DNA of 64,000 nt from Jatrophihabitans telluris (lineage in GTDB: Bacteria > Actinomycetota > Actinomycetes > Mycobacteriales > Jatrophihabitantaceae). The translations under genes and the position numbers were made by a program. The stretch is taken from contig NZ_CP097332.1 of NCBI RefSeq assembly GCF_023516435.1, positions 930,001 through 994,000 of the forward strand. Direction: 5' to 3'. Of the stretch, positions 5,119 to 20,377 are shown one piece after another; position 1 is the first letter of the stretch; every line of letters starts with the position of its first letter. The notes below the pieces were generated by a model, which worked only from the letters and a program-made list of their open reading frames with translations, had not been told where the DNA came from and ran no database searches.

Positions 5119-5327
5119 TCGCTGATTGTCACACCCAATCCGACATTCCGCGTGACGTCGTCGAAATGTCAATCCTCACGTCCCGCTGATCGGCGGTGAT
5201 GAACCGCGCGCCTCGATCAGAGCTGTCGGGCCGGTCCCGACGCGCATACACTCCGACTGGCCGGGGTCCCCGGCATGGACCGGTGAGGTGCCGAGCACTT
5301 GCCCGGGCGTGCGCGATCGGAGCGGCC

Positions 5328-8300
5328 ATGTCTTGCGTACCGCGTCGTCCGGGGGCGAAAGAGGCCGGTCTCCCGTCGGGCGTGGTCACCTTCATGTTCA
5401 CCGATATCGTCGGCTCGACGCGGTTGTGGGAGTCCGAGCCGCAACCCATGGCGGCCGCGATGGCTCGTCATGACGCGCTGGTCGAAGCTGCGGTGACCGG
5501 GGCGGGGGGCCACCTCGTCCGGCCTCGGGGCGAGGGGGATTCGCGCTTCGCGGTCTTCATCTCGGCGCGTAGCGCGCTCTCCGCGGCCGCCGACATCAGC
5601 CTGGCGTTACAAGCCGAAGTATGGCGGACGTCCTGTCCGGTGCAGGTCCGCACGGCCGTTCATTCGGGTGAGGCCGAGTTCCGCGCCGGCGATTACTACG
5701 GGGAGGTGGTCAATCGCTGCGCCCGGCTGCGCGGTGTGGCGCACCCCGGTCAGATCCTGGTGTCCGCGGCCACCGCGGCGGTGGCCGGACCCGTGCTGCC
5801 CGGGGAGCTGAGCCTGGCCGATCTCGGGGTGCACCGCCTCAAAGACCTGGCTCGCTCCGAGCATGTGTTCCAGCTCGACCATCCCGGGCTTGTGAACACG
5901 TTTCCACCGTTGCTGTCGCTGGATCGTGCTCGGCACAACCTACCGGTGCAGACCTCGACCTTCGTCGGACGCCAGGAGGAAGTTCGCGCGCTGACCACCG
6001 CTGTGCGCGAGAACCGGCTGGTCACGCTCACCGGATTCGGTGGAATGGGCAAGACCCGTCTTGCTCTGCACGTCGGTGCCGAGCTGGCGAAGGGCCCCGA
6101 CGGTGACGTCTGGTTCGTCGATCTGTCCGGAGTCGACGACCCGGCTTCGGTTCCGGCCCGAATCGCGCAGGCGCTCGACGTGCGGTTGGGGGCCGACGAG
6201 CCGACCGACGCGCTGGTGGCAGCACTGCGCGATCAGCCGACCCTGCTGATCCTGGACAACCTGGAACAGATACTCGAGTGTTCCCCGTTCGTCGCAGCCC
6301 TGCTGGCCGCCGTTGAGCCACTGCGAATACTGGCCACGAGCAGACAAGCCTTGCGCGTTCGAGGTGAACGCCAGTTCCTGCTGCTTCCGATGCCCTCACC
6401 CGAACCGGGCGAGACGTTGGAAACGATCTCGACCTTCGACGCCGTCCGGCTGTTCCTCGACCGCGCCGTGTCGGTCAGACCGGAGTTCACCATCACCGCC
6501 GCAAACGCCTCGGCGGTCGCTGCGATCTGTGGCCGGCTGGACGGACAGCCGCTGGCGTTGGAACTTGCCGCCGCGCGAATGAAGATGCTGACGGTCGATG
6601 AGCTGACGCACCGTCTGGACGCGGGTCTGCAGATTCTTGGCGGGGGCTCACGCGACATCCCCGAACGGCACCGAACGCTGCGCGCAACGATCGCGTGGTC
6701 GGTCGATGCACTCGACGCCGAGGAGCGGGAACTACTTGCCGCGATGTCGATCCTGTCCGCTGTCGCCGACTTCGACCTTGTCGAGGCGATCGCGGGCGCC
6801 GACCTGGACGCGTTCGCGGCCCTCGAATCCCTCGTCGAGAAGTCCCTGGTCCGCCCTGTTGACGGTGAGCGGACCGGTTACGCCTTGCTGGTGAGCATCC
6901 GCCTGTACGCCGCCGAATTGCTCACCGACGACTCTCGCCGCGGGTACCGGGACCGGCACGCGGACTACCTGACCCGTCGGCTCAGGGAACTCGCGCAAGC
7001 CTCCGTCGTGTCCGATCAGGTCGCGTTCGTGATCGGTCAGCTGGATCACCTGCGTGCTGCCATCGCCCACCGTCGGGCGCTCGGGCCGCCCGCAGCGGAG
7101 ATCGCCCTGCTCGCGGGTATCGAGGGATTCATGGTGCGGCTCGGCTACGCCTCGGAGTACCTGTCGATCTCCGAACACGTCCTTGCCCTCGACGCTCGTC
7201 CGGACGACCGGGTCACGATCCTGGCTGCACGGATGACGGCACGTCTGAACCTGGGTCTGGGCGTTGACCCCGCGGAGCAAACAGCTCTGCGGCTCAGCGC
7301 AGGTCAATGCTCCGATCCCATGAACCGGGCCATCGGGCTCGTGATGCTGCTGGCCACGACGCAGACCGCGTCGGAGTTCTCGGCTGCCCACGACGACGTG
7401 GATGACGCCCTCGCGCTCCTCGACGGCGCGCAGCTGCTGGAGTGTCAGCTCGGGCGCGACAGCCTGACCGCGCGGTGTCTGCGTTTTGCCGATCCCCCGC
7501 GGGCAATGGACGCGGCTCTGGCGTTGCTGGAAGCCGAGCCCGGTCTCGGATACGCAGACGTGGGCCGGATCCGCCTTGCCGCGCTGCTCCTGGATGCCGG
7601 GCGCGGTGCCGAGGCCCTCGACGTCACAGTCCCCCTGGCGGGCGCGACGTTGTCCTTCTCTCCGGAGTGGCAGACGCGCGCGCTCTGTGTTCGAGCTGAA
7701 GCCCTGCACGCTGTCGGTGACCTCGACGCCGCGATGCACTTGGCGGCGACAGCATTTCATCGAGAGATCGAGGAAGATCAGACGCCCAACGAGGCTGCGC
7801 AGGTGCTCGCTGATCTGCATCGCGTTCGTGGCGAGTTGGCTGAGGCGTTGGCCGCCCTCGACCGTGCGGACGGGCAGATGCCGCGGCCGCTCGGGGTTGT
7901 CGGTGCGGCGAACCTTTGGCGGCGCGCTGTCCTGCTTCGCCGGCTGGGCAGAGCCGACCAGCGTTCAGCTGACCTCGAGCATGCCATCGACCTATTCCTC
8001 GCCGAGCCGCTCTACGGGGTGCGCGACCTGTTGGCTTGCGCGGTCGAGACGGCCGTCCGGATCGTCCAAAAGCAGCCCGCGGACGCCGCGCGCCTCCTCG
8101 GCTGGGTCGATGCCAATCGTCGTGATTGGGTCCTGCCCTTCGGAATGGAGGAGGAAATCCAGCCGCTGGCCGCTCGGCTACTTCCCTCCTGGCAAGCCGA
8201 ATACGACAACAACCGCCGCGGCGACCCGTACCCGGCGCGACCGTTGACGGTCTCACCACAACCGCCGTTGCGAGTCGCTCCGCATCAGGTGGACGCGGCG

Positions 8301-8342
8301 TCAGCGCAGGTGGATGCACAGGGGTTAGGCGGCGCGGTTTAG
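5328..8342 (+). CDS. Class III adenylate/guanylate cyclase domain - AAA ATPase - TPR regulator
   Basis: 1004 residues from ATG 5328, chosen because upstream in-frame starts precede only Arg-rich low-quality sequence. The cyclase domain occupies residues about 18-185. The first metal Asp is in FTDIVGST and the second in RGEGDSRFAVF; NRCARLRG supplies the usual Asn and Arg. An NB-ARC/AAA module follows from about 205, with P-loop GFGGMGKTRLAL near 236 and Walker B LLILDNLE. The C-terminal half is helical, TPR-like. This architecture belongs to the large actinobacterial family of cyclase-ATPase signalling proteins. It is divergent from the zinc protein/Crp pair and ends overlapping the stop codon of the next, convergent gene. 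Confidence 0.92.
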   Translation: MSCVPRRPGAKEAGLPSGVVTFMFTDIVGSTRLWESEPQPMAAAMARHDALVEAAVTGAGGHLVRPRGEGDSRFAVFISARSALSAAADISLALQAEVWRTSCPVQVRTAVHSGEAEFRAGDYYGEVVNRCARLRGVAHPGQILVSAATAAVAGPVLPGELSLADLGVHRLKDLARSEHVFQLDHPGLVNTFPPLLSLDRARHNLPVQTSTFVGRQEEVRALTTAVRENRLVTLTGFGGMGKTRLALHVGAELAKGPDGDVWFVDLSGVDDPASVPARIAQALDVRLGADEPTDALVAALRDQPTLLILDNLEQILECSPFVAALLAAVEPLRILATSRQALRVRGERQFLLLPMPSPEPGETLETISTFDAVRLFLDRAVSVRPEFTITAANASAVAAICGRLDGQPLALELAAARMKMLTVDELTHRLDAGLQILGGGSRDIPERHRTLRATIAWSVDALDAEERELLAAMSILSAVADFDLVEAIAGADLDAFAALESLVEKSLVRPVDGERTGYALLVSIRLYAAELLTDDSRRGYRDRHADYLTRRLRELAQASVVSDQVAFVIGQLDHLRAAIAHRRALGPPAAEIALLAGIEGFMVRLGYASEYLSISEHVLALDARPDDRVTILAARMTARLNLGLGVDPAEQTALRLSAGQCSDPMNRAIGLVMLLATTQTASEFSAAHDDVDDALALLDGAQLLECQLGRDSLTARCLRFADPPRAMDAALALLEAEPGLGYADVGRIRLAALLLDAGRGAEALDVTVPLAGATLSFSPEWQTRALCVRAEALHAVGDLDAAMHLAATAFHREIEEDQTPNEAAQVLADLHRVRGELAEALAALDRADGQMPRPLGVVGAANLWRRAVLLRRLGRADQRSADLEHAIDLFLAEPLYGVRDLLACAVETAVRIVQKQPADAARLLGWVDANRRDWVLPFGMEEEIQPLAARLLPSWQAEYDNNRRGDPYPARPLTVSPQPPLRVAPHQVDAASAQVDAQGLGGAV

Positions 8343-9209: not shown

Positions 9210-10845
9210 GAGCGCGACTGTGCAGGCCGTCGACCTGGCGGCCGGTCATGGTGCGCGGGTGCTGTTTTCCAACCTGGACCTGGTGGTCGCACCTGGCGAC
9301 GTCGTAGGGCTGGTCGGTGCCAATGGCGCGGGCAAGTCGACGCTGCTGCAGATTCTTGCCGGTGAGCTGGAGCCCGAGCACGGCGCGATCGTGCTGAGCC
9401 CGCCGACCGCGACAGTCGGGCATCTGCCGCAGGAACCGGAACGGCTCCCTGGAGAAACGGTGCTCGCCTTTCTCGGCCGGCGCACCGGCGTCACGGCTGC
9501 CCACGATGCGATGGAGGCGGCCGCGCACGCTCTGGCCGGCGATGATGCGGCCGCGCCCGACACGTACGCACTCGCGCTGGAGAGGTGGCTCGCCCTCGGC
9601 GGTGCCGACATCGACGAGCGGGCCGGTGACGTCGCGGCGGACGTCGGGCTGGGCATCGATCTCCGCACGCCCATGGCGGCGCTGTCGGGTGGTCAGGCCG
9701 CGCGCGCGGGGCTCTCGGCGCTGCTGTTGTCACGCTACGACCTGCTGCTGCTCGACGAGCCGACGAACGACCTCGACCTGGACGGGCTGTCGCGGTTGGA
9801 GCGGTTCGTGCACGAGCTCCGTACGCCGGTGGTCATCGTCAGCCACGACCGTGAGTTTCTTGCCCGCACGGTCACCCGCGTCGTCGAGCTCGATGCGGCG
9901 CAGCGCACGGTCGGGGTCTATGACGGTGGTTACGACAGTTACCTCGCCGAACGGGAGGTCGCCCGCAGGCATGCCCGCGAGGCCTACGACGAGTACGAGG
10001 GCCGGGTCGGTGAACTGAAGGATCGCGCCCAGATGCAGCGCAACTGGATGGCCCAGGGCGTCCGCAATGCCCGCCGCAAGTCGACCGACAACGACAAGAT
10101 CAGTCGCAACAAGCGTACCGAGACGAGCGAGAAGCAGGCCGCCAAGGCGCGCCAGACGCAGCGCATGATCCAACGGCTCGACCTCGTGGACGAGCCTCGC
10201 AAGGAGTGGGAGTTGCAGATGTCGATCGCGGCGGCGCCACGCTCCGGCACCGTCGTGGCGTCGTTGGCGGGCGCGATCGTGCGGCGCGGCTCGTTCACGC
10301 TGGGCCCGATCGACGCCCGGGTCGAGTGGGCCGACCGCATTGCCCTGACCGGCGCCAACGGGTCGGGCAAGACGACGCTGCTTGCGGTACTGCTCGGACG
10401 GCTGCCTGTCGATGCGGGTACGGCCGGCCTCGGCTCGGGCGTCCGTATCGGCGAGATCGATCAGGCGCGCGGGCTGTTCCTGGGTCCGCAGGCGTTGACG
10501 CGAGCCTTCGGCGAGGCGGTAGCCGACTGGACCGAGGCCGAGGTGCGCACCCTGCTCGCGAAGTTCGGCCTCGGCGGTGAGCACGCCACCCGGCCGGCGC
10601 AGTCGCTGTCCCCGGGGGAGCGCACCCGGGCCGCGCTGGCTCTGCTGCAGGCCCGGGAGGTGAACCTGCTGGTGCTCGACGAGCCCACCAACCACCTCGA
10701 CCTGCCCGCGATCGAGCAGCTCGAGCAGGCCCTCGACAGCTTCGACGGCACGGTGCTCCTGGTGACCCACGACCGGCGCATGCTGCAGACCGCTCGGGTC
10801 ACGCGGCGCTGGAGCATGACCGCGGGACGGCTCACGCAGAGCTGA
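9208..10845 (+). CDS. ABC-F family ATP-binding protein
   Basis: 545 residues from ATG 9208. Two tandem ABC ATPase domains without membrane segments are joined by a charged linker. Domain 1 has GANGAGKSTLLQIL and signature LSGGQAARAGLS with LLLLDEPTNDLD. Domain 2 has GANGSGKTTLL, LSPGERTRAALAL and LLVLDEPTNHLD. The linker holds many Arg/Lys (RNARRKSTDNDKISRNKR), as expected for the P-site tRNA interaction motif of ABC-F proteins. ABC-F proteins act on the ribosome as translation factors or protect it from antibiotics. Which of these applies is not evident here: no resistance gene or peptide synthetase is adjacent. Confidence 0.93.
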   Translation: MSATVQAVDLAAGHGARVLFSNLDLVVAPGDVVGLVGANGAGKSTLLQILAGELEPEHGAIVLSPPTATVGHLPQEPERLPGETVLAFLGRRTGVTAAHDAMEAAAHALAGDDAAAPDTYALALERWLALGGADIDERAGDVAADVGLGIDLRTPMAALSGGQAARAGLSALLLSRYDLLLLDEPTNDLDLDGLSRLERFVHELRTPVVIVSHDREFLARTVTRVVELDAAQRTVGVYDGGYDSYLAEREVARRHAREAYDEYEGRVGELKDRAQMQRNWMAQGVRNARRKSTDNDKISRNKRTETSEKQAAKARQTQRMIQRLDLVDEPRKEWELQMSIAAAPRSGTVVASLAGAIVRRGSFTLGPIDARVEWADRIALTGANGSGKTTLLAVLLGRLPVDAGTAGLGSGVRIGEIDQARGLFLGPQALTRAFGEAVADWTEAEVRTLLAKFGLGGEHATRPAQSLSPGERTRAALALLQAREVNLLVLDEPTNHLDLPAIEQLEQALDSFDGTVLLVTHDRRMLQTARVTRRWSMTAGRLTQS

Positions 10846-11187
10846 GTCGCGGCTGGTGTTCCGGCGTTCGATGCGGGTAAATGTCGCGTATTAAATGCGA
10901 GCACTTGGGGCGTGTGGGCGAACGCCTGGGAAGTGCGACCCGCGCGATCGCGTCTTGGCCCCTCTTGCCCTGAGGCGCACTCGTCCGCCTTTCACGAACA
11001 CACCGATGGACAGCGACCGACGCGGACGATGATCCGGCGGCAGGTGGCGCGTAGTCATACCGACCGCGCCGGTTGAACAAGACAGGGTCTCGAATATCGG
11101 CCGGCCGGCCCGTGCTTTCATGATCGTCACATGAAGGCTGCATAGCCTTCTGGGGTTCATCGTGCGTGGCTATCTTCGGGGGTAGAT
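10846..11187. other. Intergenic region, no gene seen
   Basis: 340 bp between the ABC-F stop and the 50-residue membrane protein. The GC content drops locally in places (for example around 10875-10895), which could mark the promoter of the downstream kinase-KAP set. The minus frame 11160-10891 lacks a ribosome binding site and has a composition unlike protein, so it was not accepted. Confidence 0.5.
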
Positions 11188-11340
11188 ATGTCTGTACAAC
11201 GGCGTCGCCGTGGCGCCTGGTCGACGCAGCAGCGTTTCGCGGCGGTCGGCGGCGGCGCGGTTGCGCTGGTCGGGCTCTTGTATTTGGCAAGGCAGCTTCT
11301 CGACCGTGTCGTCGGAGTAGACCCCGGCCCGGCGCACTGA
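11188..11340 (+). CDS. 50-residue single-pass membrane protein
   Basis: ATG 11188 is preceded by a G-rich ribosome binding site (cgggggtag). An Arg-rich N-terminus (VQRRRRGAWSTQQRF) precedes one hydrophobic helix (AAVGGGAVALVGLLYLA), then a short tail (RQLLDRVVGVDPGPAH). By the positive-inside rule the N-terminus is cytoplasmic. It is the first gene of a same-strand set with the kinase-KAP protein 114 bp downstream. A role as a small partner is possible but unproven. No family is recognised. Confidence 0.6.
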   Translation: MSVQRRRRGAWSTQQRFAAVGGGAVALVGLLYLARQLLDRVVGVDPGPAH

Positions 11341-11454
11341 GGTCGAACGGCGCGCATCGAAGCATCGGAGTGAGCCCCTCCGCCGGAACGCCCATTGCGC
11401 CCGTCGCCAGATCGGGCCAGGATCGTGGCAGGATTCTGCGGCGGGGGGAGTCGC

Positions 11455-14400
11455 ATGACTGTGCCGACGTTTCCCGGCCTCGACGACCTGCGCCTGATCG
11501 GTCAGGGCGGGTTTTCCAAGGTGTACGCGGCCTATCAGCCTTCCTTGGACCGGATGGTAGCCATCAAGGTGATGAACCTGGAAGGCAAGCTGTCAACGGC
11601 CATCGACGACGAGCTGCGCGCAATGGCCAAGGTTACCGAGCATCCCAATCTGGCTCAGATCCTGGATCACGGGCTGGACCGCGAGGGTCACCCGTACCTG
11701 GTCATGCCGCTCTATCGCGAGAGCCTCGGCGACCTGATCTCCGAACGCGGCGCTCTCGACCTGGAGACGACGCTGCGAATGGGCGTAAAGCTCGCCGGAG
11801 CCGTGCACAGCTTGGGTCAGCTCGGATTGCTGCATCGTGACATCAAGCCATCGAACGTACTGCTCAATCGGTTCGGTGACGTCGTCCTCTGCGACTTCGG
11901 ACTGGCCCGGCGCACGTCCGACGGCGTGACCCCAACCAATGACCTGCCGCTCACCCCGGCTTACGCACCGCCGGAGGTCATCGACGGATTCCCTGCGGGC
12001 CAGGCCGCCGACGTATATGCCCTTGCCGCGACGCTGTACACCTGCGCTGCGGGCAAACCGCCTTATACCGGCGAGACTCTGGCTGTGCTGCAGAGGATCA
12101 TGACGGAGGCAGCCCCGCGTCTCTCGCCCGAGGTGACGGGGGCCGACTTCGCCGACCTCATTGCCGCGGGCATGGAGCATCGAGCCTCGGCGCGACCTAC
12201 CGCGCTGGAGTTCGGCCGCTCGCTGCAGGACATTCAGCGCTCTCGCCAGCTACCGGTAACCGAGATGGTGCTGCTGGTCGAGGACGACCACCGGCAGTCC
12301 GCCACACCCGCGCCAGCGTCGCAGAGCCCCGAGCCCGCGCAGCAGCACGGAGTGCGTTTGCCACCAAGGTCAGCTCCGTCGGAAGAAGACTCCTCGGCGT
12401 GGCTGCGAGAAGCGACGGTGATACCCAATTACCAGCCGTCGCCGCCTGCTGCCGCGCCACAGCAACCGCCGCCTGTTGCCGCGCCGCAATCGCCGCAACC
12501 GCCTGACGTCTCGCAGCCGTCTCCCTTCATCACGGAGTTCCCGCCTTCCGACGCCACGCAAGGGCGGTCGGATGCTCCGCGGTACGGTCAGCAGACGCCG
12601 CCCTCCGGCGACAGTCCCTACGGGCCGCCCCCGGCTGGCTACAGTCCCTATGGGCCGCCCCCGGTCGCTGGCTACAACCCCTATGGACCGCCGCCGGTCT
12701 CCGGCGACAGTCCTTATGGTTCGCCGCCACCGGGCTATTCCCCCTACGGCTTCGACCCGTCCGCGAACGGTCCCAATGGCTACCCTCCCGGTTACGGCCC
12801 GGTGTACTCAGACCTCGCACCGCGTGGTGGGCCGCTGCGAACGTTCGTGGTTGGCACCGGGATCGTCCTGGCGCTGATCGTCGTACTGCCGTGGCGGGCG
12901 GCCAAGGCGTTGTTCACACTCATGGTGCGCGGCCTGACCTCGCGTCGCCGTAGCCGCGCTGCCGAGCCGGAGCAAGGAAGTTGGCTCGGCCGGGTGTCGG
13001 CGGATCGGCCGACAACGGTCGATCTGCTCGGCCATGGCCCGCTCATGGAAGGGCTGGCCCAGGTGCTCAACGATCCGGGAACCGCCCTGCCGATCACGAT
13101 AGCGGTGTGCGGACAGTGGGGTTCAGGCAAGTCGAGCATGATGTTGCAACTCGCCGAGCGACTGTGCACCAACCCGAGCCCGTACTGGCAACGACGTTGG
13201 CTGGCCGTCCGCTTCGATGCCTGGCGCTTTCAGGGGCGCGAGGCGCTGTGGGCAGGACTGGCTCGGGCGATCTACCAGCAGACCTGCGCAGAACTGGGTT
13301 CCCCCCTGCAGCGATTGAGGTTTCGGCTTCGCATCGAACGGCATCGGCGGGGTCCGGCGCGCTTCTTCGGGGGCCTGCTCGTGGTCCTCGTCGGGGCGGC
13401 GTTCGTCGGCTGGGAGAGCGTAGCGGCCTGGCGCGGTGCCGGCTCCTGGCTCACCTTCGCCGGCCTTGGTGCGGGGGCGGCGGCGCTCGCCGTGGCCATC
13501 GGCTACGTGGGTGTGTTGAGCCAGCCGTTCGAGCGGGCGATCGCGCGTGGATCGGTGACCAAGAAGTTCGACGAGTTCCTCGGTATCAGCGATCAAGCCG
13601 AGCAGGACATCGAGAGCCTGCTGACCGCGATCGTCGAAGGCCGCCAAGGACGCTGCCTCGTGGTGTTCCTGGACGATCTCGACCGATGTCAGGCGGCCTT
13701 GATCACCGAGGCGCTGGCGGCCATCACGGAGATCTTCGGTCGTCACGACGGCCGCCGGATCGCCTTCGTTCTCGGTATCGATCTGGATGTGGTGACGAGC
13801 GCGGTCGACAGCTCGCTCAGCGCGCTGCAGGACCGGATGCGTCGGCTGAACGCACGTCGTGCCGGGGAGATGAGCGAGCAGTTCCTGGAGAAGGTCTTCC
13901 AACTCAGTGTGGCCGTGGACGGTCACCGACGGCAACGGGTCGAGCGGTTGTTGCTGGGCGATCTCGGCCCTGCGGTTGAAGCGGGGTGGTCGGCCGTCGC
14001 AGGCGGCGGCGCGTCGTCGGTCTCGATGGGGGACCGGATCGCCGATCTCGACGTGCAGAACCCGGCGGAGTTCACCATGGCTCGCCACGCCGCGGGCATC
14101 AACTCTCAAGTGCTGGCCACCCCCGACCTGCTCGCACTCAGGGCTGCCGTTCGTGAACGGCGTTCGTCCTTGCTGTCGGTGGAAAGTGATGATGTCCGGG
14201 CCGCTGAACAGGCCGCCATCGGTAGCCTGCAACTGACGCCCCGCGCGGCCAAGCGTTTCGACAACGCATTCAGACTTCAAATGCAGGTCGCGAACAGCAC
14301 GCCGGGCAGCGAGCTGGATTACGGCCCCGACTCCCTGATTGCCATTGCCAAGTGGGTGGCCCTCAGGATGTTCTTCCAACCGCTCGTCCGCCTCGTCGAT

Positions 14401-14607
14401 CAGCGCCCGGGACTGCTCGGCGAGCTCGAAGAAATCCTGATCAGCAGTCGAGAATCATCCGCGTTCACAGCCCGAATCAGCGAACTTGCTCCCGACGCGC
14501 TCACGCCGGAGGCCATCGCCGACGCGGCCCGGCTGCTCAGGGTCAACCTCCCGTTGAGCCAGCTCTCCTCGCTGCCGCTCGACTCCTTCGCCACCACCAC
14601 GATGTGA
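11455..14607 (+). CDS. Ser/Thr protein kinase fused to a transmembrane KAP P-loop NTPase
   Basis: 1050 residues from ATG 11455 with GGGGGGAG upstream. Residues 10-265 form a Hanks-type kinase: glycine loop IGQGGFSKVY, VAIKVM lysine near 38, HRDIKPSNVLL near 128, DFGLARR, and an APPE-type segment. Residues about 275-450 are Pro-rich with YGPPP-type repeats. A membrane helix lies near 461-480. The KAP NTPase carries P-loop GQWGSGKSSMM near 555, the typical RWLAVRFDAWRFQGREALW, two inserted membrane helices (about 642-690) and Walker B VVFLDDLDRCQ near 737. KAP NTPases are predicted membrane-associated STAND-like ATPases; some, such as plasmid PifA, act in phage exclusion. The joined kinase suggests phosphorylation-controlled membrane signalling. 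The catalytic residues of both halves appear intact. Confidence 0.92.
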   Translation: MTVPTFPGLDDLRLIGQGGFSKVYAAYQPSLDRMVAIKVMNLEGKLSTAIDDELRAMAKVTEHPNLAQILDHGLDREGHPYLVMPLYRESLGDLISERGALDLETTLRMGVKLAGAVHSLGQLGLLHRDIKPSNVLLNRFGDVVLCDFGLARRTSDGVTPTNDLPLTPAYAPPEVIDGFPAGQAADVYALAATLYTCAAGKPPYTGETLAVLQRIMTEAAPRLSPEVTGADFADLIAAGMEHRASARPTALEFGRSLQDIQRSRQLPVTEMVLLVEDDHRQSATPAPASQSPEPAQQHGVRLPPRSAPSEEDSSAWLREATVIPNYQPSPPAAAPQQPPPVAAPQSPQPPDVSQPSPFITEFPPSDATQGRSDAPRYGQQTPPSGDSPYGPPPAGYSPYGPPPVAGYNPYGPPPVSGDSPYGSPPPGYSPYGFDPSANGPNGYPPGYGPVYSDLAPRGGPLRTFVVGTGIVLALIVVLPWRAAKALFTLMVRGLTSRRRSRAAEPEQGSWLGRVSADRPTTVDLLGHGPLMEGLAQVLNDPGTALPITIAVCGQWGSGKSSMMLQLAERLCTNPSPYWQRRWLAVRFDAWRFQGREALWAGLARAIYQQTCAELGSPLQRLRFRLRIERHRRGPARFFGGLLVVLVGAAFVGWESVAAWRGAGSWLTFAGLGAGAAALAVAIGYVGVLSQPFERAIARGSVTKKFDEFLGISDQAEQDIESLLTAIVEGRQGRCLVVFLDDLDRCQAALITEALAAITEIFGRHDGRRIAFVLGIDLDVVTSAVDSSLSALQDRMRRLNARRAGEMSEQFLEKVFQLSVAVDGHRRQRVERLLLGDLGPAVEAGWSAVAGGGASSVSMGDRIADLDVQNPAEFTMARHAAGINSQVLATPDLLALRAAVRERRSSLLSVESDDVRAAEQAAIGSLQLTPRAAKRFDNAFRLQMQVANSTPGSELDYGPDSLIAIAKWVALRMFFQPLVRLVDQRPGLLGELEEILISSRESSAFTARISELAPDALTPEAIADAARLLRVNLPLSQLSSLPLDSFATTTM
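12600..12750 (+). repeat. Coding repeats for YGPPP-type motifs in the kinase-KAP linker
   Basis: Five imperfect copies of a unit coding for S/N-P-Y-G-[PS]-P-P plus a variable Gly-rich spacer lie between the kinase and the first membrane helix. The unit length varies between copies (about 30-36 bp), so the array stays in frame. Pro/Tyr/Gly-rich linkers of this kind are typical of actinobacterial kinase juxtamembrane regions. Confidence 0.8.
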
Positions 14608-14748
14608 CGAGGGCATAGCCGACGGATTCCTCCGCTTCGGGGGAGATCTTGCACAAATTTTGTCGATTCCTCTGACGAAGGCGTCTCCGGTCCTCTATCG
14701 TCTGCTGGCGTATCCGACATCACCGGACAGATTGGGCAGGGACAGAGC

Positions 14749-15615
14749 ATGTTGGGAGTACGGCGCGCGGGTGCCGCCGCGGCATGTGCCGTCGGGGTCA
14801 CCGTCGTATTGTTGAGCTCGCAGGTGGCATCTGCCAGCCCCGGCGGCCCTGGCGCGAAGCGACCGCTGCCGACCATCGGCCAGTTCGATCCCGGCAGTCC
14901 CAGGCCGTTGACCGGGGACGAATTGCAGCGGAGCCTGGCCAAGCAGAAGCTGGCCGATGAGCATTGGAAGGCGGCCGAAGGCACAGCCGGCGGCGCAAAA
15001 GGCCTGCATGCAGTTGCGAATGCCTACGTCTCCCGAAATCTCGGCGTGGCCTACCAGAGGCAGGTCAACGAGGTTTACTGCGGGCCCGCGACCATGGCCA
15101 TGATCGCCAGCTTCCTCAAGATCGGCTGGTCCGGAACTCCGGCCGCCCAGCAGGCGGCCGCGGCGAGACTGCTCGGAGCCACGAACGCTGGAACGGCGTG
15201 GTTTGGGGCTGACAACGTTCCTGCCTACCGGTATTCGAGTTGGTATCCGATGGCAGACGCTCTGAACTACCTGATCTACAGGAAAACAGGAAACACCTGG
15301 TATTCCGCCGCGACGGTCTCCGGAATTCCCACGTCGGCGCAGGTAGCGGCCTACCAGGCGAATCTCAAGTTCGACGTCGACGCCAACCATCCGATGGCCC
15401 TGAACCAATATTCGGGTGACGGCTTTCAGCTGCCGTATCAGCCCAACTATCCCTGGCAGCACTGGCTCGTAGCGCGTGGGTATGAAGGCGGTGGAGTAAC
15501 CACCATCGTGAACGACCCTGGGTGGCCCAAGGTCGGAGAGAACGCGAGGGTTCGTTCACACGCGGCTCGCCAGGACATCCTCAATGCTGTCGGTGGCCAT
15601 GGTTATATCTGGTAG
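14749..15615 (+). CDS. Secreted C39-like cysteine peptidase
   Basis: 288 residues. A Sec signal peptide (residues 1-30, ending SSQVASAS) is followed by a mature domain of the C39-like papain-fold family. The catalytic Cys is in VYCGPATMAMIASF near residue 107, the His in WQHWLVARGYE, and Asp in IVNDPG. Related secreted proteins in actinobacteria are annotated 'C39 family peptidase'; substrates are generally unknown. The gene follows the kinase-KAP gene by 141 bp on the same strand. The downstream lipoprotein start lies inside its last codons, so the two are translationally coupled and probably act together at the cell surface. Confidence 0.85.
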   Translation: MLGVRRAGAAAACAVGVTVVLLSSQVASASPGGPGAKRPLPTIGQFDPGSPRPLTGDELQRSLAKQKLADEHWKAAEGTAGGAKGLHAVANAYVSRNLGVAYQRQVNEVYCGPATMAMIASFLKIGWSGTPAAQQAAAARLLGATNAGTAWFGADNVPAYRYSSWYPMADALNYLIYRKTGNTWYSAATVSGIPTSAQVAAYQANLKFDVDANHPMALNQYSGDGFQLPYQPNYPWQHWLVARGYEGGGVTTIVNDPGWPKVGENARVRSHAARQDILNAVGGHGYIW

Positions 15616-16927
15616 ACGACGGCTGTTGCGAAGCTCAAGCCTCCTGACGATGGTGCTGCTTGCCGCCTGTGTCGCGTCGTGCACGTCAGTAGGTAGCCCA
15701 CGAAGGACCCATACGACTCCGGCGCACAGCGTCGGCGCCAGCCGCGGCGCGGCGAGCCCCACGCCGAGTCGTTGGAGAACCTCAATCGCTCCATCTCGAT
15801 ATGAGGATGGTGCGGACTTGGGCGGATATCCGTGTTTGGTGAAGGCGCCAACGGCGTGGACGGATGCGATCGCGAGAGGAAGCCTGTGGCATGCCCAGAT
15901 AGGCGAGGGCGAAGGAGGCTCTCCGACCCCGGATGGTTCTGCGATGCTTCAACAGACCTATAAGGGCAACGTGGCGCATTTCGCTCTGGTTGGTAAGGGG
16001 CAGCGGGTGGTGCAGGAGATCGGCTCGATCGCGGGAAGGCCCGGCGCCGGGTTCACCTACAACGTGGTAACCGATGACTATGTGGCGTTCGTCTATGTGC
16101 TGACGAACGTTGGTGCGGCCCAGAATCTGTGGCGGGTGTACCTGTTCGACCGGCACCGGAACAAGTTGACGGTGGTGGCTACGAATCCGGTCGACAGGCA
16201 GGGCCAGCCGTTGAGTGGAGGCTGGGTCGAGCCGGTGCTGAGCAAGCGCTATCTGTACTGGTTGCAGGCCGCTGACACGGGTTCGGCGGCGGGTAGTAAC
16301 GAGCTGCAGCAGTACAACCTGGCTACCGGCAAGATCCGCACGCTGTATCGGGGTTTGTCCGAGGCAATTGTCCTGGTGGGTGATCAGGTGTGGTTCTCAG
16401 CGGTGGATCCGCATGCGAAGCCGACAGATCAGGATCCGCCGATGCAGATGGCCGGCGTCGATGAAGAAACCGGCCGTCCGGTCCCGGTGCCCGCGGAGAT
16501 CACGGCGGGGAAAGACCGTTCGTTCGTCATGAGGTATGGCTACGGAACGTTGGTGTGGGGAACCTTTTCCGGAAACCTCATGGCGTGGCGTCCCGAGTGG
16601 GGCCGCAGTATCACGCTGGTTCCATTCGACTGGCCGCTGGGGGAGAAGCTCGGTCTGTCTGGAGCAGGTTATCCGCGCATTTTCAAGCAATTCGTGGTGT
16701 GGCAGCCGGGAAGCACGTACGTGCTTGACCTCAAGACCAACAGTTTCGCCGAGCTCATCGCCAACGCCGGTGGCGAGGACATGACCGGTTCCCAGCTCGC
16801 GATGGAGTGGTACACCGAGGCCGAGCCGAAGAAGGAAGCGGGCAAGTGGCCGTTCGACGCCTCCATCATCGACCTATCCACACTGCCCGATCTCGACCCT
16901 TGCCCGCCCAAGGGGACCGGTCGCTGA
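15599..16927 (+). CDS. Putative lipoprotein with beta-propeller-like repeats
   Basis: 442 residues from ATG 15599, overlapping the stop of the C39 peptidase by 17 bp. The N-terminus has basic residues, a hydrophobic stretch (LLTMVLLAACVASC) and a lipobox VASC, so lipid-anchored export is expected. The mature part has repeated beta-strand-like segments such as LWRVYLFDRHRNKLTVVA and LQQYNLATGKIRTLYRG, resembling TolB/WD-type propeller blades. No enzyme motif is seen. The overlap indicates coupled expression with the peptidase; it could be an inhibitor, substrate or anchor for it. Confidence 0.75.
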   Translation: MVISGRRRLLRSSSLLTMVLLAACVASCTSVGSPRRTHTTPAHSVGASRGAASPTPSRWRTSIAPSRYEDGADLGGYPCLVKAPTAWTDAIARGSLWHAQIGEGEGGSPTPDGSAMLQQTYKGNVAHFALVGKGQRVVQEIGSIAGRPGAGFTYNVVTDDYVAFVYVLTNVGAAQNLWRVYLFDRHRNKLTVVATNPVDRQGQPLSGGWVEPVLSKRYLYWLQAADTGSAAGSNELQQYNLATGKIRTLYRGLSEAIVLVGDQVWFSAVDPHAKPTDQDPPMQMAGVDEETGRPVPVPAEITAGKDRSFVMRYGYGTLVWGTFSGNLMAWRPEWGRSITLVPFDWPLGEKLGLSGAGYPRIFKQFVVWQPGSTYVLDLKTNSFAELIANAGGEDMTGSQLAMEWYTEAEPKKEAGKWPFDASIIDLSTLPDLDPCPPKGTGR

Positions 16928-16970
16928 GCGGAGCCGCACGGGAATGCGAAGCGCGCTGACCTGGAGCGGG

Positions 16971-17357
16971 TCATCGCGCAGCCGGCGGCTCCCAGAGCTC
17001 GATCGCATTGCCGTCGGGATCGTGAATGCGCGCGAAGCGACCGAGGCCCTGCGAGTCCCATGCCGGGTCGACCGTGACGTCGATATCGCTGGCGCGCAGC
17101 GCTTCGAGCAGGCCGTCGAGGTCACGCACCCGCAGGTTGAGCATGAACTGCTTGTCCGGCGCCCAATAGTCCGTGCCGCGCTCAAAGGGTGCGAAGACCA
17201 GCGGGCCACCCTGCACGGTCCACGTCCACTCCTCCGGAGGCCCGGTGTCCTCGGCGGCACATCCAGCGCCGATGCCAAGATGCTGGCGATACCAGGCATT
17301 GAGGGCTTCAGGATCCTGCGCGCGGAAGAATATGCCGCCGACTCCCAGTACTGGCAT
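16971..17357 (-). CDS. VOC family protein (glyoxalase/bleomycin-resistance fold)
   Basis: 128 residues from ATG 17357, chosen for the near-perfect GGGAGGAG ribosome binding site eight bases upstream. Two beta-alpha-beta-beta-beta halves are visible: the start LGVGGIFFRAQDPEALNAWYRQHLG and the end DPDGNAIELWEP. These are typical of small VOC metalloproteins. The closing Glu of IELWEP is the usual metal ligand. Substrate unknown; such single-domain proteins may be lyases, dioxygenases or drug-binding proteins. Confidence 0.88.
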   Translation of the reverse strand: MPVLGVGGIFFRAQDPEALNAWYRQHLGIGAGCAAEDTGPPEEWTWTVQGGPLVFAPFERGTDYWAPDKQFMLNLRVRDLDGLLEALRASDIDVTVDPAWDSQGLGRFARIHDPDGNAIELWEPPAAR

Positions 17358-18280: not shown

Positions 18281-18515
18281 GGCCGGTCGCGACCGCGTAC
18301 GATGACAGCGGTTGGGATTTCAGCTGGTTCGGAACCGGGTCCGCAGTCTGCCGCGGCTTCGTAGAGCTCCCGCTCGCCGCCGGACAGAGTCGGGCACTCG
18401 TCCTCGAGGCGCTCATGTCAACACTTCCAGCAATCCCGCCTCGTCCGACTTCAACCTGGTCTTGGCGGCGTCCCCGCCTTCTTTGCGGTGTGTCCGGGCG
18501 CCAGGCGGGGACGGC

Positions 18516-20377
18516 ATGACCTCGGATGCGACGCTGTCGGAGTTGCTGAGCGAGTTCGCCCGGACGCTGATCACCGACTTTCCGATCCAGGCGATCCTGG
18601 ATCATCTGGTGCTTCGGATCGTGGACGTTCTGCCTGTGACGGCCGCCGGCGTGACGCTTATTTCGCCGGGGGCGGCACCGCATTACGTTGCCGCGTCGGA
18701 CAGATCGGCATTGCGTTTCGAACGGCTGCAGACCCGTTTGGGACAGGGTCCGTGCATGCTCGCCTACGAATTGGGCGAGGCCGTAGCGGTTCCCGACCTC
18801 GCGGTGGAGACGCGATTCCCGGCCTTTGCCAAGGCTGCCATGGCGGCTGGTCTGGCTGCAGCGTTCACGTTCCCCCTGCGCCACGGGGCTGGTGGCCTCG
18901 GGGCGCTCGACCTCTACCGGGACACCTCGGGGCAGCTCAGTGACGCCGACCTCGTTACTGCCCAGACCCTGGCCGACGTCACGGCAGCCTATGTGTTGAA
19001 TGCCCAGGCCCGGGACGAGGCACGGGAGGCCTCGGATCGGTTCCGGACCAGCGCGCTGCACGATGCGCTGACCGGCCTGCCCAATCGGCTGCTCCTGCAA
19101 CAACGACTCGAACATGCCGCGCAGCGCGCCGCACGGACGCACACCCCAGCCGCGGTCCTGTTCGCCGACCTCGACCGCTTCAAACAGATCAACGACACCT
19201 ACGGACACCAAGTCGGAGACGACCTGCTCGTCGCCGTCGCTGACCGTCTCTCGCACCTGGTCAGACCGGGTGACACTCTGGCGCGCGTGAGCGGAGACGA
19301 GTTCGTGTTCCTCTGTGAGGATCTCACCGATGCCGCTGATATCCACGCCTTGGCCGCCCGGATCGGAGACGCCCTCAAGGAGCCGTTCCTCGTTGCGGGT
19401 AACGAACTCACCGCGAGCGCCAGTGTCGGCATGGCCTATGCCGGACCCGGGGAGACGATTTCGAATCAGCTCATCGTCGATGCCGACATCGCCATGTACC
19501 AAGCCAAGATGGCCGTCGGCGCCAAGCCCGACATCATCGACGTCCGGCAGCTCTCGCACGCCAGTCTGGGCACGAGCCTGGAGCGGGATCTGACGGCTGC
19601 GTTCAACCGACGTGATCTGCGCGTCGCCTACCAGCCGATCGTGCGAGTCCGCGACGGATACGTCTGCGGGGCCGAGGCGCTGCTGCGCTGGACCCACCCC
19701 ACTCGCGGAGCGGTCCCCGCGCTGGACATGGTCAGGATCGCTGAGGACAACGGCCTCATCGTCGGCATCGGGAGCTGGATCCTGCATCAAGCCTGCCGGG
19801 CCCGGACCCGCTGGCTGCACCGCTACCCCCACCAGCCGTTGGACGTGGCCGTGAACGTGTCCACCCGTCAGCTACTGGGACCGCATTTCGGCGCGACGGT
19901 GGAACACGCGCTGCACACGACAGGGATGGATCCCGAAGCGCTCATTCTGGAGCTGAGTGAGGGCATCTTGATCCCGGATGCCGAACGCGCGCTGACGGTG
20001 CTGAGTGAGCTGAAGTCCCTCGGCGTGAGGCTGGCCTGGACGATTTCGGAACTGGTTTCTCCTCCCTCAACTATCTGAACCGTTTCCCGGTAGACATCCT
20101 GAAGATCGACCGCAGTTTCGTCTCCGGCCTCCCGCACGACCCGACGTGCGATGCGATCGTGGCCACGACGAGCCAACTGGCCCGCCGTCTCGGCATTCAC
20201 GTGATCGCTGAAGGTGTGGAACGCGACGAGCAGCGAAAGTCCGTCGTTGATCTGGGCTGTCACTCCGCCCAGGGATTTCATTACGCACCAGGACTGCCCG
20301 AAGCTCAGTTCGAGGCACTGCTTGCCACCAACAGTCCGAGGGGAACCTACTTACCGGCGACCACCCTCGGCGCGTAG
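18516..20377 (+). pseudogene. GAF-GGDEF-EAL cyclic-di-GMP protein interrupted by a frameshift
   Basis: From ATG 18516 the frame encodes a GAF domain (about 15-165), a GGDEF domain with active-site form SGDEF (about 185-345), and most of an EAL domain (GAEALLRW near 385, ELSEG later). At about 20034-20039 the frame slips: after GVRLA the expected LDDFGTGFSSLNYL appears only in the +1 frame, and the first frame stops at 20078. The second frame continues KIDRSFVSGL and IAEGVE to a stop at 20377. One missing base (probably C in gccctggac) explains this. Both enzyme domains otherwise look competent. It is either a recent mutation or a sequence error. Confidence 0.88.

Follow-up and report, generated by a model that had tools for sequence, protein, structure and literature searches.

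The locus at positions 11188-16927 of the window analysed here, a stretch of 64,000 nucleotides (bases 930001-994000 of the 4.19 Mb single-contig genome of Jatrophihabitans telluris), raises the question of whether four neighboring frames on the forward strand work as one system. A sequence-only reading had proposed that a protein combining a kinase and a KAP NTPase, a small membrane protein, a secreted C39-like peptidase and a lipoprotein constitute a membrane signalling or defence system that controls or guards extracellular proteolysis. All four frames are indeed present in the ORF list and its translations. The first of these proteins is a rare variant assembled from known modules, and the C39 peptidase and the lipoprotein are probably not part of its system.

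The large gene (11455..14607, ATG start) encodes a protein of 1050 amino acids in which kinase and KAP NTPase are united in one chain, just as had been claimed. The Hanks-type kinase domain at residues 12-252 (11488..12210; Pfam PF00069 Pkinase, 2.6e-37, above cut-off) has retained the motifs GQGGFSKV (16), VAIK (35), HRDIKPSN (127), DFG (147) and APPE (171). It is followed by a linker rich in Pro, Gly, Ser, Ala and Tyr with approximate limits at about residues 286-457 (12310..12825; 50 of the 195 residues in the region 286-480 are Pro) and by a hydrophobic segment at about residues 458-491 (12826..12927), which would be an anchor or a re-entrant stretch. The KAP P-loop domain at residues 531-836 (13045..13962; Pfam PF07693 KAP_NTPase, 3.3e-23, 82.8 bits against a cut-off of 20) contains an intact Walker A motif, GQWGSGKS (553; 13111-13134), and an intact Walker B motif, VVFLDDLDR (736; 13660-13686), and between the two lies a pair of hydrophobic segments (residues 633-689; 13351..13521). 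Transmembrane segments inserted into the NTPase domain are reportedly described for the KAP family in the title of a 2004 paper by Aravind and colleagues, which PMC11846954 cites, and the pair in the fusion fits this description. All hydrophobic segments were called by Kyte-Doolittle hydropathy alone. The number of such segments between the two halves is odd, namely one, so that kinase and KAP domain would be placed on opposite sides of the membrane if this segment spans it. Segment 458-491 may instead be re-entrant, which would ease the topological problem.

The kinase half is a relative of PknK. In a tree of 11 rows, a small set hand-picked by us, it falls into one clade with two PknK-type proteins from Rhodococcus (96/96 support, about 42% identity). 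The best 12 of the 402 plasmid records obtained with the fusion protein as query all stem from Rhodococcus and include these two; residues 8 to 273-278 are aligned there with 40-42% identity, and one of the proteins is annotated as PknK. Pfam rows for the two Rhodococcus PknK-type proteins of the tree (L249 and L250) comprise kinase, TPR, GerE and NB-ARC/AAA, some of them below cut-off, whereas neither STAND nor TPR nor a LuxR HTH was found by Pfam behind the kinase of the fusion, where KAP and weak AAA rows appear. When a collection of genome contigs was searched with the fusion protein, two kinase relatives were the only matches. The four other kinase matches of the genome (best 1.5e-34) are less similar to the window kinase than the PknK-type proteins are. 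We infer that the fusion was born when a KAP NTPase took the place of the STAND NTPase-TPR-HTH part of a PknK. What is new here is a PknK-type kinase with a membrane KAP NTPase where STAND, TPRs and LuxR HTH normally stand. With regard to other kinase families, the fusion reaches 141.7 of the 450 bits set for PASTA kinase (PknB/Stk1) equivalogs and 103.7 of the 460 bits set for the MADS MAD6 kinase. With the PADLOC models for PD-T4-6, the fusion obtains 164 bits, but values of up to 478 and 596 bits are reached by two further kinases encoded in the genome, which also outscore it with mad6. Because of this lack of specificity the PADLOC kinase matches are not counted in favor of a defence role, and a derivation of such a role from them was rejected.

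The KAP half is highly divergent, with best identities of 29% in an alignment of 139 columns and 26% in one of 392 columns and an end branch of 2.3. Among the PADLOC models, QatA (6.8e-16) and PifA (4.6e-12) align to the KAP part only, and none of the seven PADLOC rows for this part is named Tmn. Two of its six plasmid matches are annotated as QatA; the NCBIfam QatA equivalog model gives 67.7 bits for the fusion, with a cut-off at 600. Among solved structures, nothing related to the KAP part came up at E 0.01. Matches to the KAP query are scattered: they occur in five of 41 related genomes, that of the window included, in none of the eight congeners, several of whose genomes are incomplete, in 12 of 396 genomes across the phylum and in 54 of 397 genomes across the order, again including the window's own, the absences in phylum and order being soft as at most three candidates were scored per genome. 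The Pfam KAP model detects 94 of the 396 phylum genomes at E 0.001 (85 above cut-off), many of them by short weak stretches, and gives one match in the genome studied here. Since the best non-self KAP match in the order reaches just 3.8e-18 at 31% identity, no orthologue of the fusion was called in the genome sets searched. Furthermore, no single place among the best 12 plasmid and the best 12 phage records covers at least 80% of the fusion protein, viral contigs searched with the KAP part and the C39 protein contained no relative, and literature searches on KAP turned up no paper whose title deals with a fusion of this kind. The occurrence data can be read as those of a rare, apparently strain-specific variant of modular KAP switch proteins.

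Neighborhoods were compared in 106 loci, 94 of them for KAP (chosen among the best matches), ten for the C39 protein and two for the lipoprotein, and all were searched with kinase, KAP, C39 and lipoprotein queries by single-sequence phmmer (E 0.01, frames of at least 70 residues). In 88 of the 94 KAP loci this recovered 90 KAP frames; in the remaining six the sequence queries missed the frame. Several of the KAP proteins are mosaics. WD40 repeats precede KAP above the Pfam cut-off in three of nine scanned proteins (L143, L205 and L209) and weakly in L136, and a second batch of eight contained one protein with WD40 (L026) and one with a peptidoglycan-binding domain (L084). By eye, Clp_N-like and trypsin-like N-terminal parts were seen in L027 (8280-11483, reverse strand) and L028 (7922-11095, forward strand), a caspase-like part in L152 and macro-like parts in L139 and L141. 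Pfam did not support these labels for L027, L028, L139 and L152, giving KAP and AAA alone for the first two, and the N-terminal parts seen by eye may represent undescribed module families. The arrangement resembles the plan laid out in PMC8195603 for conflict systems, in which a core NTPase is combined with interchangeable effector or adaptor modules; a KAP ATPase can displace a STAND NTPase in predicted systems of this kind.

Apart from the window protein, a kinase accompanies KAP in one of the 90 frames, L160 (6120-8864, reverse strand; Pfam kinase and KAP) from a genome of the same order (G514). A single origin of both fusions was considered and rejected. In the tree of 11 rows the kinase of L160 forms a group with L236 (96/99) and stands apart from the window kinase. 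In the KAP tree, which consists of 90 rows (89 fetched KAP frames and the window, one fragment having been dropped), the L160 KAP falls within a clade of 21 rows (support 100), none of the others having a kinase, and the window KAP is a long branch that lies outside a clade of 37 rows. An AU test on a 33-row subset rejects one clade of both KAP domains with p = 0.00014. As the kinases group apart, the L160 KAP is nested elsewhere and the AU test points in the same direction, the two fusions appear to be independent; the long branch of the window KAP calls for caution here. L160 itself has a low GC3 (0.57) as compared to values above 0.9 in several neighboring genes, which suggests recent acquisition.

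Next to the fusion gene, a frame of 50 amino acids (11188..11340) had been taken for a protein with a single transmembrane segment. The frame and one hydrophobic 19-mer (Kyte-Doolittle) are there, a combination found in only three of the 171 window frames of 50-80 amino acids. On the other hand, it has no match at E 0.001 in Pfam, NCBIfam and PADLOC, a single Pfam row at 0.15 being below cut-off, and as a gene the frame is plausible but unsupported. The frame downstream of the fusion (14749..15615) encodes a secreted C39-like peptidase (Pfam PF13529 Peptidase_C39_2, 5.6e-8, 33.9 bits against a cut-off of 24) with Cys111, His238 and Asp256 in the expected order, which we take to be its catalytic residues. 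Its end overlaps the start of a lipoprotein-like frame (15599..16927, alternative start 15584) by 17 or 32 bases depending on the start chosen, in agreement with the overlap described earlier. The latter protein offers LAAC and VASC as candidate lipoboxes (by eye) and matches none of the Pfam, NCBIfam and PADLOC families at E 0.001. Both proteins are sparsely distributed. The C39 protein matched itself alone among the 24 genomes of the family and matched 30 of 298 genomes of the order including its own (best other 2.6e-7); no relative was found in the collection of genome contigs, and there was no solved relative below E 0.3. For the lipoprotein, a 49% identical paralogue is encoded elsewhere in the genome and a single relative occurs in genome G014, which amounts to two of 24 family genomes and to the same two of 200 genomes in the order. 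Structure prediction from single sequences gave mean pLDDT values of 34.4 (lipoprotein) and 33.4 (C39 protein) and no usable model. Near the lipoprotein paralogue, at about 3.26 Mb in the genome, repeated small lipoprotein-like and secreted genes (L024, 1670-6569, reverse strand) share near-identical parts as judged by eye.

Do these frames belong with the fusion? A role of the kinase-KAP protein in controlling or guarding the C39 peptidase and the lipoprotein, with the 50-residue membrane protein as a partner, could be argued from the common strand and order, from the overlap of the last two frames, from the rarity of KAP, C39 and lipoprotein alike among related genomes and from a scan of 10800-17300 in which neither promoter nor terminator was found, a weak test in a GC-rich genome. 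The compared loci speak against it. None of the 94 KAP loci contains a separate kinase or a relative of the C39 protein or of the lipoprotein detectable by phmmer at E 0.01, a threshold at which remote C39 proteins would escape, and at the same threshold none of the ten C39 loci contains KAP. Neither KAP nor C39 accompanies the lipoprotein paralogue or its relative in G014, the latter lying at a contig end with one side unseen. L160 has neighbors other than those of the window fusion (DUF3800-like, sigma-factor-like and GntR-like genes, labelled by eye), and a weak C39 relative in its genome (1.2e-4) lies about 59 kb away. Within the window, the fusion is separated by 114 bases from the 50-residue frame and by 141 bases from the C39 gene, so that clear coupling is confined to C39 and lipoprotein. 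Less weight is carried by GC1, which is 0.70 for the fusion as compared to 0.63 and 0.61 for C39 and lipoprotein, other window genes going down to 0.59, and by codon usage, a length-dependent measure by which none of 38 window genes is more typical than the fusion, the lipoprotein being the fifth and C39 the eleventh most unusual. The fusion and the C39-lipoprotein pair thus look like separate units, although this conclusion is indirect because no fusion orthologue was found whose neighborhood could be read. Co-conservation of kinase-KAP, C39 and lipoprotein, on which the earlier proposal depended, did not appear in any of the three groups of loci, its suggestion of governed extracellular proteolysis finds no support in them, and we regard the four-gene system as very unlikely.

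The wider surroundings look regulatory or housekeeping. A Pfam scan of ten flanking proteins recognised no known defence gene and instead a cyclase-NTPase, a two-ABC ATPase, a GGDEF-EAL and an ANTAR protein. The first of these, encoded 3 kb upstream (5196-8342, forward strand), is a mosaic of 1048 amino acids that joins an adenylate/guanylate cyclase to a STAND-like AAA NTPase (nSTAND1 row just under cut-off) and as such is another signalling-NTPase mosaic. In the GAF-GGDEF-EAL protein (18312-20078, forward strand) the EAL domain ends early (Pfam EAL 2-150 of 236) and EAL-like sequence is seen by eye in the next ORF (20159-20377, forward strand), probably because of a frameshift in the gene or an error in sequencing. 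Congener loci with close relatives of the ABC-F gene (six) or the rhomboid gene (one), several of them on short contigs, have different surroundings; except for one partial GGDEF-EAL match, nothing else of the first 40 kb of the window was found in these seven at 1e-8.

For the large gene, the membrane signalling or defence part of the original proposal still provides the best reading. We tentatively favor, with a probability of about 0.4, a single-gene, membrane-anchored modular KAP switch with kinase output, from which the C39-lipoprotein pair would be separate as a secreted or envelope unit of its own. The KAP half would bind and hydrolyse NTP at the membrane face and would change its state or oligomerise on a cue, most likely one related to phage or envelope damage. 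The PknK-type kinase domains at the N-terminus would thereby be brought together, autophosphorylate and then phosphorylate cytoplasmic host proteins, and growth arrest or a stress response might be the outcome. This reading is in line with two domains above Pfam cut-off, with the presence of the key motifs, with the position of the two hydrophobic segments inside KAP and with its patchy occurrence. The absence of known defence genes among the ten flanking proteins and the topology imposed by a single inter-domain segment stand against a switch in defence.

The same gene could also encode an ordinary envelope or stress signalling kinase, that is a membrane-bound PknK-like regulator in which KAP has a sensory or anchoring function and conflict plays no role. 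This alternative is nearly as likely because PknK is described, in the parts of PMC4601284 that concern it, as a regulator of stress and transcription whose STAND domain is perhaps a signalling hub; the flanking genes and the typical codon usage agree with it as well. Conserved signalling kinases usually persist throughout a genus, and the fusion was not found in the eight, partly incomplete, congener genomes; moreover, KAP has published links to exclusion and conflict (PMC11846954 and PMC8195603, each in part). A fusion of recent date that has hardly any role or none, and that may not even be functional, would account for the missing orthologue, the divergence of the KAP half and the awkward topology. 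Here, however, catalytic motifs preserved in both domains, an open frame of 1050 codons and a coding-type base composition point to selection, and we consider such an accident improbable. Still less credit, slightly below that of the four-gene system, is given to a two-engine switch in which KAP replaces the STAND domain of PknK and gates kinase-triggered cell arrest upon infection, the overlapping C39 and lipoprotein genes providing its envelope arm.

KAP NTPases are known from phage exclusion and form part of many mosaic proteins, but the role of the NTPase is poorly understood. In a natural fusion of KAP with a kinase, kinase activity would offer a measurable way to tell whether hydrolysis or oligomerisation of KAP acts as a switch, and this readout makes the protein worth a biochemical test. 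The replacement of STAND by KAP behind a PknK-type kinase, together with the apparently independent fusion in L160, furthermore suggests that both types of NTPase are exchangeable as regulators.

Among known systems, PknK (kinase-STAND-TPR-LuxR) shares with the fusion an N-terminal kinase of the same clade followed by a P-loop NTPase. It differs in that the second half of the fusion is KAP with hydrophobic segments, whereas PknK is described as soluble in the relevant part of PMC4601284. L160 has the same combination of kinase and KAP in a single chain, but its linker is short without a hydrophobic segment visible by eye, its neighbors are different and both of its halves appear to be of separate origin. 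PifA, QatA and Tmn, which act in phage exclusion or defence, have the KAP P-loop domain in common with the fusion. The similarity to PifA and QatA is confined to its KAP part and stays below the QatA cut-off. Tmn is portrayed in sections of PMC11846954 as a KAP-family defence protein with two transmembrane domains, a further likeness, and its mechanism is called unexplored there. KAP is also named in connection with conflict systems in a passage of PMC10907252, and kinases serve as effectors in actinobacterial conflict systems according to part of PMC7159879. Other KAP mosaics from this family (L026, L027 and L028) are built alike, with an N-terminal module followed by KAP, and differ in that their modules are not the kinase of the fusion. 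We read the fusion as a variant, with a kinase as its output, of those modular KAP switches for which a connection with conflict and phage defence has been published.
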